From a virus, in IMG/VR virus record IMGVR_UViG_3300027668_000120, positions 1-21,859 of that record: a stretch of 21,859 bases of DNA. One strand, written 5' to 3'. Under the pieces are notes generated by a model that was not told where the DNA came from, ran no database searches, and saw nothing but the letters and a program-made list of their open reading frames with translations. The position numbers were made by a program, and so were the translations under genes. Within the stretch, counting starts at the first letter, position 1; each line of letters opens with the position of its first letter. Of this stretch, positions 2,900 to 16,601 are shown piece by piece.

Positions 2900-3055
2900 A
2901 TGAATTTTGCATGGGGTTCTGAAAAAGAAAAGATTAAAGCCTTACGTATTTCTAAGTCTGAACGTGCGCGTATTCGTAGACGTACTGTAAAGAATATTGT
3001 TGCAGATACTACACAAAGGTTGTATGCTAAGATTAGACGAAACAAAGGTAAGTAA
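2900..3055 (+). CDS. Very basic small protein (51 aa)
   Basis: 51 residues, strongly basic, with Arg/Lys-rich stretches SERARIRRRTVKN and YAKIRRNKGK. The start is two bases after the preceding stop and its TAA sits one base before the decarboxylase-like gene. The charge suggests nucleic-acid binding (RNA or DNA), but no defined fold or motif is visible. The assignment as a gene rests on operon spacing and a complete frame. Confidence 0.55.
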   Translation: MNFAWGSEKEKIKALRISKSERARIRRRTVKNIVADTTQRLYAKIRRNKGK

Positions 3056-3056
3056 T

Positions 3057-3428
3057 ATGGAATTAATAGAACACAAGCATTTAATTATTCGTGCTGAAGT
3101 TTTAAACCCTCCAAAAGACGAAGTTTGGGTACAAAATTGGCTTACTATGTTAGTAGATAAAATTGGCATGAAAGTTGCCAAAGGACCTATTACAGCATAT
3201 GTAGATGTGCCAGGTAACGAAGGGATAACTGGTTTAGTTGCGATAGAAACTAGCCATATTGCAATACACATATGGGAACTCCTAGAGCCTGCACTTGTAC
3301 AACTAGATGTATACACCTGTAGTTCTTTGGATAAAGATATGATCTTTGCAGAGTTAGAACAATGGAACCCTACTAAAGTTGAATGGAAATACCTAGATCG
3401 AGAATTTGGGTTAAACGAAGTTGAGTAA
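3057..3428 (+). CDS. speD: SpeD-like pyruvoyl-dependent decarboxylase homologue
   Basis: 123 residues. The stretch GITGLVAIETSHIAIHIW (residues 56-73) followed by LDVYTC (83-88) matches the core of prokaryotic S-adenosylmethionine decarboxylase, a self-cleaving proenzyme of spermidine synthesis. The serine that becomes the pyruvoyl group would be S66, and the conserved processing/catalytic His and Cys are H71 and C88. Length is close to the usual 115-130 residues. Differences: the residue before the processed Ser is Thr instead of Glu, the usual WPEYGY segment is replaced by one two residues longer, and TCG is TCS. The ATG at 3057 follows the upstream TAA by one base; an upstream in-frame ATG (2997) lies inside the previous gene. 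SpeD-like genes are known in marine phages, and some bacterial SpeD homologues decarboxylate arginine or ornithine instead, so the substrate is open. Confidence 0.8.
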   Translation: MELIEHKHLIIRAEVLNPPKDEVWVQNWLTMLVDKIGMKVAKGPITAYVDVPGNEGITGLVAIETSHIAIHIWELLEPALVQLDVYTCSSLDKDMIFAELEQWNPTKVEWKYLDREFGLNEVE

Positions 3429-7906: not shown

Positions 7907-9541
7907 GTGACAGAAAAAACAAAACAAGAAATCGAAAGGGAACAGCTAAAAGCAGAGAAAAAGAATCACATTCTATCTGTTTATCGTTCGATTGTTAAAA
8001 AAGAAAAACGTCTTCCAGTGCGACAAGACTTCTTAGAGTTTGAAATCTCAAGAGATATTTTACGCACAACATTTGGAGGAGTTGAAACCTTACATGAGTA
8101 CATGCGAGATACAAACGAAGAGTTTTTAAACGAACACTTTTCTTCTGTTGATAACATGTTTTCAGAAAATAAAAGTGCATCAACATCTGAGAAGCGCATC
8201 TACGTTGTTACTACAGCGGTAGCTGGTGCAACTGCACACACAGGCTTCTTGAAAACCATGAATAAATTTTGTAAAGAAAACGACGGACAAATTGTCATCA
8301 TGCCAGCGGAAAGTATTTCCAACAGCTTTGAAAAGAAAACTGCTGTGTTTGACAAAGAGTTTAATAGTGACAAATATTTATTTGTTCAAGAAGATACACC
8401 ATTGAATAATAATATTTCTTTGTGTAGCATCCAAGTGTCTGCAAAACAAGTTAAACCTATTACAGGTCTTTCTCGTTTAGGTAGACGTGAAGGTTCATAT
8501 GTCTTTGCTAGTCCCAAGCAGTTTTTAGAATACATTCCCTCTGGTAATAACAGAGATAAAAACTATTCTATTATGACACCTGGGTCTTGTACTTTACCAA
8601 ACTACTACAGTGAGACATTCGTGTCTAAGCGCATTTCATATATTGCAGGCCATGATCATCAAATGGGTGCTGTCATTATTGAAATTGAGGATGATGACAT
8701 CTTCCATTTCAGACAAATCCAATGTGAAGACGATGGTTCGTTCATTGATATGGGTAAACAGTACAGTCATAATAAAAAGACTAAGCGAGTTCCAGTAAAT
8801 GCGATTATGGGAGATATTCACGGCGTACAAGCTGATGAAGACGCCATTGGTATGTTCGCAACTTTATTTGCTACTATGGATCTTCGTTCACTTTACTTAC
8901 ATGACATATTTGATGGTTACAGTATTTCACACCATATTCGTGACATCTCTGAGAAAAGTAAACGCAGTGAAGATGGAATGGGTAAATTAGTAGGTGAGTT
9001 AGAATACACATATGACTTGGTTAAAAGTATCAGTGATACGACAAAGGCTAAAGATGTCTTTATCGTAAAATCAAATCACGACGAATTCCTTGACCGATAC
9101 CTAAAAGAAGGTAGATATGTATTTGATGCCGAAAACCATTTAATATCTTTGAAGATTGCAACAGCTCTATTCGAAGACGAAGACATTCTTCAAAGAGGTT
9201 TTGACGTAGTGGGTAAAGAGTCTCCATCGCATTGGCATTACTTACAACGAGACGATTCGTCAATCATTGCAGGAGTTGAATGTGGATCACATGGTGACTT
9301 AGGTTTGAATGGTGCTAAAGCCGCTCTTAACTCATTAGAAAGAATCTATGGGGATTGTGTTACTGGTCATAATCATACAGCGGCAATTCAACGTGGTGTG
9401 TTCAGAGTTGGAACTTTGTCACAGTTAGACATGGGATATAATAGAGGACCTAGTTCTTGGACGCAGACGTGTTGCTTACTATATGAAAATGGTCAGAGAC
9501 AATTGATTAATAACATCAATGGTAAATGTAGCATACTATAA
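7907..9541 (+). CDS. Calcineurin-like metallophosphoesterase, T5 A1-like
   Basis: 544 residues starting at GTG, with ACGGAG ten bases upstream. The C-terminal part holds the metal-binding motifs of the calcineurin-like superfamily in order: GDIHG (302-306), HDIFDG (332-337, for GDxxDxG), SNHDE (389-393, for GNHE/D), GSHGD (460-464) and TGHNHT (486-491). These coordinate two metals (often Mn) for phosphodiester or phosphomonoester cleavage. Residues 1-70 are charged and helical with an IVKKEKRLPVRQDFLE-type segment that could bind DNA; 95-255 is an extra domain with AGHDHQMGA (247-255), which mimics a metal-site motif. Size and architecture resemble the T5 pre-early A1 protein, linked to host DNA degradation. 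It has its own promoter and terminator. Nuclease activity is inferred; another phosphoesterase substrate is possible. Confidence 0.85.
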   Translation: MTEKTKQEIEREQLKAEKKNHILSVYRSIVKKEKRLPVRQDFLEFEISRDILRTTFGGVETLHEYMRDTNEEFLNEHFSSVDNMFSENKSASTSEKRIYVVTTAVAGATAHTGFLKTMNKFCKENDGQIVIMPAESISNSFEKKTAVFDKEFNSDKYLFVQEDTPLNNNISLCSIQVSAKQVKPITGLSRLGRREGSYVFASPKQFLEYIPSGNNRDKNYSIMTPGSCTLPNYYSETFVSKRISYIAGHDHQMGAVIIEIEDDDIFHFRQIQCEDDGSFIDMGKQYSHNKKTKRVPVNAIMGDIHGVQADEDAIGMFATLFATMDLRSLYLHDIFDGYSISHHIRDISEKSKRSEDGMGKLVGELEYTYDLVKSISDTTKAKDVFIVKSNHDEFLDRYLKEGRYVFDAENHLISLKIATALFEDEDILQRGFDVVGKESPSHWHYLQRDDSSIIAGVECGSHGDLGLNGAKAALNSLERIYGDCVTGHNHTAAIQRGVFRVGTLSQLDMGYNRGPSSWTQTCCLLYENGQRQLINNINGKCSIL

Positions 9542-10972: not shown

Positions 10973-11005
10973 TTGACAAACTCGTTTTAATCATTCAATT
11001 ATAAT
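10973..11005 (+). promoter_or_regulatory. Early promoter element, TTGACA with TATAAT block
   Basis: TTGACA 10973-10978 and a perfect TATAAT at 11000-11005, but 21 bases apart. The block AATTATAATGTATAAGTTAA is repeated before the genes at 12303 and 12721 (one base change in the latter). A weaker CAATTA lies at the standard 17-base spacing. Confidence 0.7.
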
Positions 11006-11037
11006 GTATAAGTTAAACAAATATAAGGATTATCAAT

Positions 11038-11454: not shown

Positions 11455-11549
11455 TGGATAATGGTAATACTGTATGGTGTGAAGGCATGCTAGATGATAA
11501 AAATAACTTTATGAAGATGGTGCAATTTGCCATGAGTGCGGGGAAATAA
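11454..11549 (+). CDS. Possible tiny gene (31 aa)
   Basis: 31-codon frame beginning MDNGNTVWCEGMLDD, joined to the upstream stop by TAATG and ending one base before the methyltransferase ATG. The perfect fit between two genes suggests it is translated, perhaps mainly to couple them. No domain visible. Confidence 0.4.
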   Translation: MDNGNTVWCEGMLDDKNNFMKMVQFAMSAGK

Positions 11550-11550
11550 T

Positions 11551-12234
11551 ATGTGGGGATACTATGGCAGTAAGAGCAAAGTTATTAACCATTATCCTGC
11601 TCCTATACACGACTTAATCATTGAACCTTTCGCTGGAACCGCCCAATATGCATTAAAGTATTTTGATCGAGATGTTATCTTGATTGATAAATATGACGTT
11701 ATTGTCAAGTTATGGCAATGGTTGCAGAAATGTTCCCCACAAGATATATTAGAAACCCGCCGCTTGAAATACGGCGATAACGTAGATGATTTTGAATGGG
11801 ATTGCGTGGAGCGTAAATGGATGGTTGGGTTCATTATTGCTGGAGCACCAGCACAGCCAAAGAAGACTGCAACGCGGTGGAAAACTGTTCTTCGCCCTAA
11901 CACGCAAGAATACAAACTAAAATTAATCTCAGAATCTTTATACAAGATTAGGCACTGGAATATTAAACAAGGTGTGTACCAAGACTTAGATAATAGACGC
12001 GCTACTTGGTACGTCGATCCACCTTACGTCGATGGAGGGCAGTATTACCGCCACGGCAATAAACACATCAACTTTGAACATCTTGCTCGTTGGTGCTGTG
12101 AACGCAAGGGACAGACTATTGTATGTGAAAAGACAGGGGCAGATTGGTTACCTTTTGAACACTTAATTGAATCACGCGGCGCAAAGAAACAACATTGTGA
12201 AGCGATTTGGACAAATGAGAGCACTGGATCGTAA
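11551..12234 (+). CDS. D12-class (Dam-like) DNA adenine methyltransferase
   Basis: 227 residues from the ATG at 11551 (a GTG 15 bases upstream is less likely because it overlaps the tiny upstream frame). MWGYYGSKSK matches the N-terminal GxKxxL/xxI motif of D12-class enzymes, EPFAGTAQYAL (25-35) is the SAM-binding motif I and WYVDPPYVD (153-161) the catalytic motif IV. This alpha order, with motif I before DPPY, differs from the three other methyltransferases in the window and defines N6-adenine methyltransferases such as Dam. It is somewhat short for the class, and the recognition region between the motifs is compact. No nuclease partner is nearby. The recognition sequence cannot be predicted from this. 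Confidence 0.9.
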   Translation: MWGYYGSKSKVINHYPAPIHDLIIEPFAGTAQYALKYFDRDVILIDKYDVIVKLWQWLQKCSPQDILETRRLKYGDNVDDFEWDCVERKWMVGFIIAGAPAQPKKTATRWKTVLRPNTQEYKLKLISESLYKIRHWNIKQGVYQDLDNRRATWYVDPPYVDGGQYYRHGNKHINFEHLARWCCERKGQTIVCEKTGADWLPFEHLIESRGAKKQHCEAIWTNESTGS

Positions 12235-12242
12235 ATTAGGTG

Positions 12243-12275
12243 TTGACAATACCATTAGAATCGTTTAATTATAAT
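12243..12275 (+). promoter_or_regulatory. Early promoter element, TTGACA with TATAAT block
   Basis: TTGACA 12243-12248 and TATAAT 12270-12275, again 21 bases apart, with TAATTA (12266-12271) at 17. The 20-base block around TATAAT is identical to the one at 10998. Confidence 0.7.
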
Positions 12276-12302
12276 GTATAAGTTAATTAAAAGGGTTATA
12301 TA

Positions 12303-12660: not shown

Positions 12661-12693
12661 TTGACAAACTCGTTTAACTAATTTAATTATAAT
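12661..12693 (+). promoter_or_regulatory. Early promoter element, TTGACA with TATAAT block
   Basis: TTGACA 12661-12666 and TATAAT 12688-12693, 21 bases apart; the 20-base block differs from the copies at 10998 and 12268 by one base (GTATGAG for GTATAAG). Confidence 0.7.
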
Positions 12694-12720
12694 GTATGAG
12701 TTAATTAAAAAGGAATCATT

Positions 12721-13037: not shown

Positions 13038-13706
13038 ATGATCAATCTAATTAAGGGCGATTGCTTTAATGAATTACCAAAGCTTAAAAGTCAAAGCGTA
13101 GACATGGTTATAACTTCACCACCATATAACAGAAAAAGAAATGATAAATATAATAATCATAATGACATTAAAGGCGATTATGTTTTATTTTTAGAAAACT
13201 CAATAAATGAATGTTTGAGGGTTTGTAAAGGCAATGTATTTTTTAATATACAAAAAAACACCTACAACCATAAAGATGTTCATAAAATTATGGGTATGTT
13301 TTCTGACAAAATAATTGAAGTATTGATTTGGAAAAAATCAAATCCGATGCCAAACCCACATTTAATAAATGCATATGAATATATTTTAGTTTTATCAGAT
13401 AATAATAAATCATTAAAAGCAAATAAAACTTACACATTGAACCATTTTACAACGTCCGTTTATAGTGCAAACCCACACAAGCAAATACATAGGGCTGTAA
13501 TGCATCCTGATGCTTGCGCTTATATGGTGGATAATTTTAGCAATGAAGGCGACATAATTTTAGACCCATTTATGGGTATAGGAACAACAGGTGTTGTTGC
13601 AACAGAAAAAAACAGGTCGTTTATTGGAATAGAATTGGATGAAGATTATTTTAAAATTTGTAATTCAAATATTATGTTAAATAAAAAGTTGAAAGAAGAA
13701 AGTTGA
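13038..13706 (+). CDS. DNA methyltransferase with TSPPY motif (likely cytosine-N4)
   Basis: 222 residues. TSPPYN (26-31) is the catalytic motif IV, and DPFMGIGTTGVVATEKNRSF (about 176-195) then IGIELDEDYF the SAM-binding motif, so it is a beta-class enzyme like those at the window start. SPPY is most often found in cytosine-N4 methyltransferases, though some adenine enzymes have it. It is short for the family, so its recognition region is small. The gene is markedly more AT-rich than its neighbours: hand counts give about 17-28% GC in three 60-base lines, against about 45% in a line of the D12-class gene. This suggests recent acquisition from a lower-GC source. The next promoter's TTGACA overlaps its stop. 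Confidence 0.92.
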   Translation: MINLIKGDCFNELPKLKSQSVDMVITSPPYNRKRNDKYNNHNDIKGDYVLFLENSINECLRVCKGNVFFNIQKNTYNHKDVHKIMGMFSDKIIEVLIWKKSNPMPNPHLINAYEYILVLSDNNKSLKANKTYTLNHFTTSVYSANPHKQIHRAVMHPDACAYMVDNFSNEGDIILDPFMGIGTTGVVATEKNRSFIGIELDEDYFKICNSNIMLNKKLKEES

Positions 13707-13764: not shown

Positions 13765-14022
13765 ATGATACAGAAGTTCTGGAAATCGCCTCGTTTAGCA
13801 TCTGCTGAATATTATATAGGTGACACTGATATGCTTATGACTGTAAGTGATGTTGAATATGAATGGGATACCGCTCTAGGAGCCAGTATGGATATACAAG
13901 GTGGGTTAGCGGTGTCTAAGTATATAAATGAAAACTCTCTAGCAGAAAAACAATTGTTATCTTTAAACTGGCTAGAAACAAAACCAAATGGAAAAGGTGG
14001 TTATTATGACAAAACAAATTGA
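13765..14022 (+). CDS. Small protein of unknown function (85 aa)
   Basis: 85 residues starting MIQKFWKSPRLASAEYYIGD after a clear GGAG site. Acidic overall, with a beta-rich first half (ADTDMLMTVSDVEYEW-type strands) and helical second half. It overlaps the next gene by 17 bases, whose start lies inside its last codons. First gene of a four-gene unit ending with the ABC/GNAT fusion. No family recognised. Confidence 0.7.
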   Translation: MIQKFWKSPRLASAEYYIGDTDMLMTVSDVEYEWDTALGASMDIQGGLAVSKYINENSLAEKQLLSLNWLETKPNGKGGYYDKTN

Positions 14023-14284
14023 AGCACAATTTCAAATTTATCACGAAGCTAATCCGCACGTGTTCGAATCCTTTAAAAAATTTGCAACTGAAGTTAAGAG
14101 TATGGGTAAAGAACAATACTCTGCAAATTCTATATTTGAGCGTATGCGTTGGCACACAGAAATTGAAACAGTTGGTGAACGCTTTAAGCTAAGTAACAAC
14201 TATCGTGCGTACTACGCTAGAAAGCTAATGGATGAATGTCCAGAATTCTATGGTTTTTTTCGTATCAAACAACTAGACACTTAA
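14006..14284 (+). CDS. Conserved phage protein of unknown function (92 aa)
   Basis: 92 residues from the ATG at 14006, with AGGTGG upstream; a longer in-frame start at 13988 lacks a good site. HEANPHVFESFKKFATEV, then GKEQYSANSIFERMRWHTEI and LSNNYRAYYARKLMDECPEF, closely match a small hypothetical protein found in many phages and prophages (from memory): a single helical domain ending in a PExxGFFRxR-type motif, also seen here (FYGFFRIKQ). Likely soluble and helical; a DNA- or protein-binding role is plausible but not known. Confidence 0.8.
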   Translation: MTKQIEAQFQIYHEANPHVFESFKKFATEVKSMGKEQYSANSIFERMRWHTEIETVGERFKLSNNYRAYYARKLMDECPEFYGFFRIKQLDT

Positions 14285-14539
14285 ATGGTCAAAACAATAA
14301 TTCATACGAATCGTAACGTCATACAAAGAAATGAGAAGAATGGAACAAGGCTTCCTGTTTGTAGAGTTGACGTTCAAGGTAAGACTTGGTATGGTTCGTC
14401 TATAGAAATATTAGGTTCAAGTCAAATGGTGTACAGTCCAGACAAGCCTTTAAAGTGTGGTGCAAAGTTGTGGCTTGAAACTGAAGCTACAGTTATTATT
14501 CACGATAAGACCACATATAAAGATATGATGAGAAAATAA
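14285..14539 (+). CDS. Small protein of unknown function (84 aa)
   Basis: 84 residues, ATG immediately after the TAA of the preceding gene and stop immediately before the next ATG, so the four genes from 13765 to 15613 form one unit. Predicted mostly beta: NGTRLPVCRVDVQGKTWYG, then KCGAKLWLETEATVIIHD. Two cysteines only, no membrane segment. It may assist the ABC/GNAT protein, by position alone. Not recognised. Confidence 0.7.
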   Translation: MVKTIIHTNRNVIQRNEKNGTRLPVCRVDVQGKTWYGSSIEILGSSQMVYSPDKPLKCGAKLWLETEATVIIHDKTTYKDMMRK

Positions 14540-15613
14540 ATGAAAGTAACAGTAGAGCGTGACGAGATCACGGATGAGATCAGTAGAATCTTTGACTATG
14601 AGTTTGATGGGACATCTACGTTTCGTCCTCACGAGATTAGTTCGATTGATCGTGAGACAACACTTAAAGACTTTGGCATTGGTTTGATTGTAGGACCTTC
14701 TGGATCTGGTAAGACAACTTTACTAAAAGAATTTGGTACTGAACAAGTTCCTCATTGGTTTGATAACAAATCTATTGCTTCTCACTTTGATAACATTGAT
14801 GATGTGCAAAACAGACTAGGTGCTGTTGGTTTTAATTCTATACCATCTTGGATGCGTCCTTATCGTGTTTTATCTAATGGTGAACAGTTTAGAGCTAGGT
14901 TAGCTAGGCAACTAGCTAGTGACATTGTTGTAGATGAGTTTACATCTGTTATTGACAGAGATGTTGCTAAGAGTTGTTCTAATGCTATCTCACGTTATGT
15001 TAAAAGAAATAATCTAAAAAATATCGTATTCTCCTCTTGTCACTATGACATCATTGAGTGGTTGCAACCTGATTGGGTATTCGATACTCAAACAGGTAAG
15101 CTGACCACAAGGGGGTATCAAAGGCCAAATATCGTTTTGGAAATCGTACCTTGTACCAGAGACATCTGGACGCAGTTCAGCGACCACCACTATCTCGACC
15201 ACCACATCCACAAAGGTGCATCTTGCTGGATCGCAACATGGAACGGCAGACTTGTCGGATTTCTTTCTAGCCTAAGCATGCCTTCGGGTACATTAAAGAA
15301 TGCATGGAGAGCACACCGAGTTGTGATCCTTCCTGAGTTCCAAGGGTTGGGCATTGGTGCCAGACTCATGGATGCTCTAGGTGATATGCACGTTGCCGAA
15401 GGAAAACGTTTCTATCTCAAAACAAGTCACCCTAGATTAGGTGAGTATTGTAATAGAAGTGATGCTTGGAAAGGTACATCAAAGAATGGAATATCAAGAC
15501 CAGACTACCTAACAAATAAATCCACATATGGGGGATTTGCTGATGTTCAGACGAAGCACACCGAAAGAGTTTGTTACTCACACGAATATATTGGAATAAA
15601 ACTTGACAAGTGA
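14540..15613 (+). CDS. ABC-type ATPase fused to a GNAT acetyltransferase-like domain
   Basis: 357 residues in two domains. Residues about 1-188 are an ABC ATPase: Walker A GPSGSGKTT (52-60), signature-like LSNGEQFRARLARQLAS (111-127), Walker B DIVVDEFTS (128-136) and a His switch SSCHYD (165-170). There is no membrane domain, and its ABC core is short, so it is not a transporter. Residues about 200-357 are GNAT-like, with RAHRVVILPEFQGLGIGARL (257-276) as the acetyl-CoA loop, preceded by FSDHHYLDHHI. HHYL recalls phage DNA/tRNA-modifying acyltransferases such as Mom, but that is a weak link. The ABC half could energise or position a nucleic acid for the GNAT half. Base composition jumps near the domain boundary. 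Substrate unknown; candidate DNA or RNA modifying enzyme. Confidence 0.85.
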   Translation: MKVTVERDEITDEISRIFDYEFDGTSTFRPHEISSIDRETTLKDFGIGLIVGPSGSGKTTLLKEFGTEQVPHWFDNKSIASHFDNIDDVQNRLGAVGFNSIPSWMRPYRVLSNGEQFRARLARQLASDIVVDEFTSVIDRDVAKSCSNAISRYVKRNNLKNIVFSSCHYDIIEWLQPDWVFDTQTGKLTTRGYQRPNIVLEIVPCTRDIWTQFSDHHYLDHHIHKGASCWIATWNGRLVGFLSSLSMPSGTLKNAWRAHRVVILPEFQGLGIGARLMDALGDMHVAEGKRFYLKTSHPRLGEYCNRSDAWKGTSKNGISRPDYLTNKSTYGGFADVQTKHTERVCYSHEYIGIKLDK

Positions 15614-15680: not shown

Positions 15681-16601
15681 ATGTTAAACTTTAAAAACTT
15701 TAGTGAAATGCCAGATGCTATTCGAGAAGAATATATTGAAGAGCAATACGACGTTTTAATTGAAAAACTTATTACATTTGGTGGGAAAGCATATCCTAAA
15801 TTTGGTAACGTTGTTATTATGGCTGGTGGAGCTGGCTCTGGCAAAGGTTTTATTAAAGATAAGCTAATTGGTATTGAAGGAAAAGTCTTTGATGTCGATG
15901 TTCTGAAGTCGTTTGCCGCCAAAGCTCCCATGATTAACAAACGTGTTAAGAAAGAAACAGGCATCGATCTAAAAAAAACAGGTGATAACCTTAAAGACCC
16001 TGAAAACGTTAGCAAAATGCATGAGATTATATCTGACTTTTTAAACCTTCCTGATAGAAGACAAGGTAAATTCTTTGCATCTGTATTAGGTGCTAGCCCT
16101 GATCGTAAACCAAATATCATATTTGATGTGACTCTAAAAGACTTACGAAAACTAGAAAAAATTACACGTCAAGTATCGTCAATTGGTTATGACAAGCAAA
16201 ACATCCATATTGTTTGGGTGGTCAATGATATTGAAGTTGCAAAAGCACAGAATACTAAACGTGATCGTGTTGTTCCAGCCGACATTCTTGTTAACACACA
16301 TCGTGGTGCTTCTAATACAATGAATGACATTATCAATATGGGTAATGGATTAAAGAAATACATGGATGGTGACATAGTATTTGCTTTTAATAAGATTAAT
16401 ATTGATAGCGAAATAATTAAGTCTGATAAGAGTGGTAGTAAGGTTGGTATGAAGGGTGACACCAAGGGTGGTATGTACTTAAAGGATGCCAATTACTTTT
16501 ATGCAAAACGTAAAGGTAAAGGCGCAACACCAGCAAGTAAATTAACTAAAGAGCTACGTGCAAAAATTGCACAGTATGTACCAAAAGGAGCTGATTGGTA
16601 G
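15681..16601 (+). CDS. Zeta-toxin-like P-loop kinase
   Basis: 306 residues. VVIMAGGAGSGKGFIKDKL (44-62) is a Walker A loop of the GGxGSGKS type, followed by KVFDVDVLK (68-76) with the Asp pair expected for substrate binding, and RDRVVPADILVNTHRGA (194-210), a lid-type Arg segment. This order fits zeta-toxin/AAA_33-like phosphotransferases, which phosphorylate small molecules (UDP-sugars in zeta toxins) or polynucleotides. No antitoxin is adjacent. The N-terminus MLNFKNFSEMPD shares F4-x-x-F7 with the proteins downstream, which I interpret as a possible capsid-targeting leader, though this copy lacks a clear [L/I]-x-E site. Length is ordinary for phage kinases of this kind. Expressed from the dual promoter. 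Substrate unknown. Confidence 0.8.
   Translation: MLNFKNFSEMPDAIREEYIEEQYDVLIEKLITFGGKAYPKFGNVVIMAGGAGSGKGFIKDKLIGIEGKVFDVDVLKSFAAKAPMINKRVKKETGIDLKKTGDNLKDPENVSKMHEIISDFLNLPDRRQGKFFASVLGASPDRKPNIIFDVTLKDLRKLEKITRQVSSIGYDKQNIHIVWVVNDIEVAKAQNTKRDRVVPADILVNTHRGASNTMNDIINMGNGLKKYMDGDIVFAFNKINIDSEIIKSDKSGSKVGMKGDTKGGMYLKDANYFYAKRKGKGATPASKLTKELRAKIAQYVPKGADW

Follow-up and report, generated by a model that had tools for sequence, protein, structure and literature searches.

The window analysed here, a linear virus record of 21.9 kb (21,859 nucleotides) whose phage genes include one for a gp32-type single-strand binding protein (phrog_224), carries a gene coding for an ABC ATPase fused to a GNAT domain (ABC-GNAT below). 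The 357-aa product is read in a single uninterrupted frame, with the ATPase half preceding the GNAT half. It is another member of a phage family whose function has already been predicted, and the gene neighbourhoods of its relatives indicate that it is probably an ATP-gated acyltransferase of DNA bases. The gene and its parts were located as follows, with conservation scored in 90 homologues.

14540–15613, plus strand: ABC ATPase–GNAT fusion (PHROG 11143), supported by Pfam, PHROG, alignment, AlphaFold and dN/dS
14540–15109, plus strand: ABC ATPase half, about residues 1–190, a single nucleotide-binding domain (Pfam ABC_tran; Foldseek)
14693–14716, plus strand: Walker A GPSGSGKT, residues 52–59; G52, S54, G55, G57 and K58 invariant
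14870–14884, plus strand: ABC signature LSNGE, residues 111–115; L111, S112 and G114 invariant
14927–14947, plus strand: Walker B VVDEFTS, residues 130–136, with the catalytic Glu133; D132 and E133 invariant
15041–15043, plus strand: switch His168; invariant
15134–15613, plus strand: GNAT half, about residues 199–357 (Acetyltransf_1, _7 and _10 over the Pfam cut-offs; Foldseek to GNATs)
15185–15196, plus strand: HHYL, residues 216–219, start of the GNAT; Y218 invariant, H217 and L219 conserved in at least 90%
15341–15358, plus strand: acyl-CoA binding loop QGLGIG, residues 268–273; G269 invariant, G271 conserved in at least 90%

The reality of the fusion was confirmed far beyond chance. The Pfam search of the 357-aa product gave 26.4 bits for ABC_tran (cut-off 25) and 38.7 bits for Acetyltransf_1 (cut-off 20.7), and phrog_11143 matched it end to end (residues 4–354, E = 4e-116). 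The earlier note had described the ABC hallmarks and a GNAT motif in one chain, and all of them were found where it had placed them, both domains exceeding the Pfam cut-offs. Further invariant columns among the 90 divergent homologues were R118, S136, R140, R260 and P265 as well as the D-loop residues. The gene is under purifying selection, since dN/dS relative to six relatives was 0.09–0.19 and low in the ABC and GNAT domains alike. The AlphaFold model had a mean pLDDT of 93.7 and a pTM of 0.88, and Foldseek aligned it with ABC nucleotide-binding domains, with GNATs and, at a low TM-score, with TmcA across both halves. Among viral models, the homologue from Leptospira phage LE4 aligned with a TM-score of 0.8. 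A structural match (E = 1e-5) was also obtained for the BFVD entry A0A8S5PZ92 from Siphoviridae sp. ctG0D7, named aspartate 1-decarboxylase; the alignment perhaps covers the GNAT part and the entry is possibly a mislabelled PanD–GNAT pair.

Relatives of the protein were found in 55 phage records, 27 of them aligned over at least 80% of its length, and in hundreds of metagenomic sequences. The family (PHROG 11143) includes proteins of pT24, PX29, LE3 and Komp_PAO1_1, and the window protein belongs to it by full-length ABC and GNAT homology with complete ATPase and CoA-loop residues. A sample of 368 ABC-GNAT loci, drawn from the records of phages, from viral contigs and from prokaryote genomes, served to compare neighbourhoods. 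The loci from prokaryotes looked mostly like prophages, having portal and terminase-like genes downstream, and ABC-GNAT was frequently positioned late or beside terminase genes in the related loci. The two halves stay together even where they are split into two adjacent ORFs. Such adjacent, sometimes overlapping ORFs were seen in the loci L002, L088, L091 and L087 (P335, Javan523, Oenococcus and Thomasclavelia phages), and these versions are often misnamed siderophore transporter. A combination of an ABC ATPase with an acetyltransferase domain is also known from the archaeal group COG2401.

The earlier note had proposed an ATP-driven acylation of nucleic acid, which is the best-supported function on the strength of the family context. 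The idea itself is not new. A 2021 survey of jumbo phages (PMC7824862), citing an earlier paper from 2013, relates the prediction that a DNA base receives an uncharacterised acyl modification from a GNAT joined to an ABC ATPase, and names Tenacibaculum phage pT24 as a carrier. The window protein is 39% identical to its pT24 homologue over 99% of its length, and the proposal was therefore an independent rediscovery of the published prediction. No biochemistry or experiment on any member of the family was found in the literature search. The gene-context links described below, that is those to the com–mom slot, the ParB module, PanD, the CoA-transferase and the formyltransferase, as well as the ParB-less clade, come from the present analysis, although parts of this context may already be described in the 2013 paper that PMC7824862 cites.

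In about 210 of the 368 loci a ParB-like gene directly precedes ABC-GNAT, a count including Mu-like loci with a 50-aa C-terminal module only, and its overlap with ABC-GNAT was mostly 1–22 nt. In a tree of 143 representatives, mostly less than 72% identical to one another, ParB was present in 93 and the C-terminal module alone in 8 more; a neighbour of this kind is typical of most lineages, not universal. At their C-terminus the partner ParBs carry a module of about 32 aa, FxVVVxCxDExEQxxxxExLxxxGxKCRV. Mu-like phages lack the ParB domain and encode the module separately, as a 50-aa protein whose gene overlaps the start of ABC-GNAT:

L103, 3852–4004; L130, 3071–3223; L181, 3846–3998; about 60 more Mu-like loci: free 50-aa module (phrog_28816)

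The possibility that the 'parB' hits in Mu-like loci reflected profile drift was rejected, as these short ORFs correspond to the ParB C-terminal module alone. Since it also occurs without the ParB domain, the module rather than the domain is the partner kept most consistently, and it is a good candidate for physical contact with ABC-GNAT. The ParB of Lactococcus phage P335 was homologous to the N-terminal part of a family of phage DNA methyltransferases (phrog_498, E = 3e-43), which favours DNA as the substrate.

A second link to DNA modification was provided by the Mu-like phages, in which the gene order is com – module – ABC-GNAT – formyltransferase. Of 80 Mu-like loci, 69 had a Com zinc-ribbon gene upstream (five members were verified with PF10122) and 56 a formyltransferase-fold gene downstream, and mom was found in the flanks of none. 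In the transposable Pseudomonas phage Komp_PAO1_1 the order is tail-fibre assembly – com – module – ABC-GNAT – formyltransferase, while in Mu it is tail fibre – gin – com – mom. The end of the tail-fibre operon is thus occupied by the ABC-GNAT set in the former and by com–mom in the latter. Com is a translational regulator of mom, so the location of ABC-GNAT after Com puts it in the place of mom. Com adjoined ABC-GNAT in Mu-like relatives only and in no member of the clade of the window protein.

Mom itself was met in T4-like lineages of the latter clade. In one of them (L029, L030, L031, L033 and L035), a Mom gene (PF25680, E = 1e-14) lies downstream of ABC-GNAT with a 4-nt overlap, and in two more it is 1–3 kb away. 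A phage with both genes does not fit a simple replacement. These contextual links, seen in relatives, are the true connections with Mom. The resemblance of HHYL to a Mom motif, from which the earlier note had drawn a link to Mom-like chemistry, did not hold up as family evidence, and the window protein was rejected as a Mom: PF25680 was unmatched at E ≤ 0.1 and the profile–profile comparison was not significant, with hhalign giving a probability of 1.9% for a short alignment pairing HHYL with KHYS of Mom. A wider set of Mom proteins from viral contigs added no depth to this comparison, since nearly all were Mu-like and 85–100% identical.

In some lineages genes with a possible role in acyl supply follow ABC-GNAT. 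The order in the lineage of phage Jace is ParB – ABC-GNAT – aspartate 1-decarboxylase – small CoA-transferase-III-like protein, and in some loci, e.g., L228, a second ABC-GNAT comes after the CoA-transferase-like gene.

L228, 5098–7261; L227, 5110–6221; L242, 2655–3679: aspartate decarboxylase and CoA-transferase-III-like genes directly after ABC-GNAT

The decarboxylase of this lineage matched solved PanD (E = 2e-16) and keeps the catalytic residues and the GS cleavage site. The CoA-transferase-like proteins scored 20–38 bits against PF02515, from just below the cut-off of 23.3 to clearly above it, and keep a GDTAAG segment, which would surround the presumed catalytic Asp. In the formyltransferase of the Mu-like phages, two motifs of 10-formyl-THF enzymes, HPSLLP and DTG, are intact. 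The gene order suggests that a dedicated acyl-CoA is used where either the formyltransferase or the decarboxylase and CoA-transferase-like pair is present; the simplest reading of the pair is a supply of β-alanyl-CoA, and the formyltransferase could cap a free amine.

The window copy falls in a well-supported clade of the tree of 143 representatives (SH-aLRT 100), nearly all members of which are without ParB. Neither ParB nor the module was found beside ABC-GNAT in the window or in 82 T4-like loci. Com and the formyltransferase were likewise lacking from the window and its T4-like clade, and none of these genes occurred elsewhere in the long or whole records of three relatives, i.e., PX29, VmeM-32 and a 160-kb contig whose protein is 86% identical to that of the window. 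ParB, Com and an acyl-supply gene were all absent from the window, so the context argument reaches the window copy by homology. Genes adjoining ABC-GNAT in this clade belong mostly to DNA metabolism, and in the nearest relatives (L007–L013) a DNA methyltransferase gene (phrog_799) lies upstream, overlapping the start of ABC-GNAT. The Pfam scan of adjacent genes revealed DNA polymerases, RusA, DnaB, NinB, N6/N4 and D12 methyltransferases and Mom, with 25 listed families serving as the distal control and no p-value attached to the comparison. Six methyltransferases were located within 1 kb and three further away, a count that is circular in that the profiles were seeded from the same neighbours.

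The immediate surroundings of ABC-GNAT in the window comprised the following features.

11536–12234, plus strand: D12-type adenine DNA methyltransferase (VDPPY; PF02086, E = 2e-5; phrog_56, E = 1e-13), 2.3 kb upstream of ABC-GNAT
12661–12709, plus strand: promoter-like 49-nt repeat, third copy and the last one upstream of ABC-GNAT
13038–13706, plus strand: N6/N4 DNA methyltransferase (TSPPY, DPFMGIGTTG; PF01555, E = 1e-34), 0.8 kb upstream of ABC-GNAT
13765–14022, plus strand: small ORF of 85 aa with no Pfam or PHROG family match and no homologue in related loci
13988–14284, plus strand: small ORF of 98 aa, matching phrog_13625; singleton among related loci
14285–14539, plus strand: small ORF of 84 aa, phrog_8676, whose stop codon abuts the ATG of ABC-GNAT at 14540; singleton among related loci

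The presence of two DNA methyltransferases within 4 kb agreed with the earlier reading. The promoter-like repeats, the other copies of which lie at 10973–11021 and 12243–12291 (copies 80–86% identical to the first), stand upstream of short operons in the window, and no plus-strand terminator-like site was found between 12661 and ABC-GNAT. This arrangement suggests a shared transcript, and the N6/N4 methyltransferase and ABC-GNAT genes are probably transcribed together. Of the coupling to three small genes that had also been noted, the abutting or overlapping arrangement of the ORFs stood, but a conserved partnership did not: no homologues of the three were found in the flanks of related ABC-GNAT loci, so the coupling is local and these singletons were ruled out as conserved partners.

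Several other genes of the window were recorded. Two adjoining ORFs for N6/N4 DNA methyltransferases occupy the left edge (27–1735), the first being a C-terminal half only, and an S-adenosylmethionine decarboxylase-like gene (2997–3428; phrog_3125, E = 9e-14), possibly connected with modified-SAM chemistry, is 11 kb distant from ABC-GNAT. The ORF at 7907–9541 matched the phrog_1745 'DNA transfer protein' (E = 1e-95) and has a metallophosphoesterase part. A zeta-toxin-like P-loop protein (PF06414, E = 1e-6; phrog_5268) is encoded at 15681–16601, and its homologue is located near ABC-GNAT in five other loci.

For an ATP-gated DNA-base acyltransferase, the following course of events may be proposed. 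On ATP binding, a head-to-tail pair of ABC domains would clamp the DNA, and hydrolysis of the ATP would reset it. A base would thereby be offered to the attached GNAT for acylation at an exocyclic amine, either N6 of A or N4 of C, with a CoA thioester as the acyl source. The ParB-like protein, or the C-terminal module alone, would act as the partner in most relatives. Accessory enzymes of some lineages may make or trim the acyl group, these being either the formyltransferase or the aspartate decarboxylase with the CoA-transferase-like protein, in which case β-alanyl-CoA would be the simplest donor. Phage DNA acylated in this way may be protected from restriction, as Mom modification protects that of Mu. 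The whole scheme in its most specific form, in which dedicated acyl-CoAs such as β-alanyl-CoA are loaded on DNA bases under ATP gating and ParB guidance, with a formylated variant in Mu-like phages, displacement of Mom under Com and the window protein as a stand-alone branch, is tentative and may well be wrong as a whole.

Alternative functions were weighed against the same data. A TmcA-like RNA acyltransferase, in which the ATPase would open tRNA or another RNA for the GNAT to acylate a base, with translation control or escape from tRNA-cleaving defences as the benefit, is rather unlikely. TmcA (2zpa), likewise a P-loop ATPase followed by a GNAT, was matched by Foldseek with E = 4.9e-6, but the TM-score was only 0.29 of the query. 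The ATPase here is of the ABC and not the helicase-like type, and the neighbours are ParB, Com, Mom, DNA methyltransferases and replication genes, with no RNA genes among them.

GNATs are promiscuous and many act on proteins, which counts against the DNA reading. It is nevertheless unlikely that ABC-GNAT serves host takeover as a protein acyltransferase switched by its ABC part, with RNA polymerase, a restriction enzyme or a nucleoid protein as the target: such a role would leave unexplained the com–mom slot, the ParB module and the acyl-supply genes, and the frequent late location or proximity to terminase genes is poor timing for takeover. Proteins are nonetheless the targets of phage GNATs such as Rac of phiKMV, as described in PMC7824862.

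A DNA-bound ATPase with a GNAT fold for CoA sensing or partner binding, serving packaging or segregation with no DNA chemistry, would accord with the ParB partner and the frequent place just before terminase. The adjacency of PanD in one lineage could be viewed likewise, PanM being a GNAT that matures PanD. Such a role seems quite unlikely, as the CoA loop is conserved throughout, most lineages lack PanD, and the links to Com, Mom and the formyltransferase point to chemistry. A transporter subunit or an antibiotic-modifying enzyme acquired by the phage is highly improbable: relatives are listed in databases as, e.g., 'ABC iron siderophore transporter' or 'hemin importer', but these labels derive from ATPase motifs alone, the ABC and GNAT halves remain together, and, in accordance with the claim of the earlier note that transporter parts are absent, no permease was present among the neighbour families of related loci, the inspected loci or the scanned window ORFs.

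If acylation of DNA bases is indeed the function of ABC-GNAT, phages would possess a second route, unrelated to Mom in sequence at the family level, of placing amino-acid-like acyl groups on DNA, a route powered by ATP and fed by enzymes that the phages themselves encode. This would account for a large family of phage proteins that are, for the most part, listed as hypothetical or as transporters, and could provide a new DNA-modifying enzyme and a mechanism of restriction escape. New DNA nucleosides would be expected in Komp_PAO1_1 (P. aeruginosa PAO1), Axumite (Gordonia terrae), Jace, PX29 and P335, all of which are culturable.

Among known systems, TmcA, the tRNA-Met cytidine acetyltransferase, uses a base amine as the acceptor and, like ABC-GNAT, has an ATPase followed by a GNAT in one chain. 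Its ATPase is of the helicase type, its substrate is RNA and the structural overlap is low, whereas ABC-GNAT has the ABC signature, Walker B and switch His; the resemblance is in plan only. The closest counterpart is the ABC ATPase-coupled GNAT of pT24, of the same family and domain order, for which the accessible text of PMC7824862 offers prediction only. The ParB-fused phage DNA methyltransferases (phrog_498) have an N-terminal part homologous to the ParB partner of ABC-GNAT, the ParB being fused to the methyltransferase in the former and encoded apart from the ABC-GNAT chain in the present family; ParB–methyltransferase fusions are enriched in prophages according to a survey of the ParB fold (PMC12704722). 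Mom of Mu (PF25680), a Com-controlled enzyme that modifies adenine at N6 to give N6-(acetamido)adenine, probably does the same job as ABC-GNAT. It belongs to the GNAT superfamily (PMC7824862), and so does the GNAT half of ABC-GNAT. The genome slot and the Com regulator are common to Mu and the Mu-like ABC-GNAT phages, but the two proteins show no family-level homology, and ABC-GNAT, unlike Mom, comes with a built-in ATPase and, in most cases, a ParB partner.
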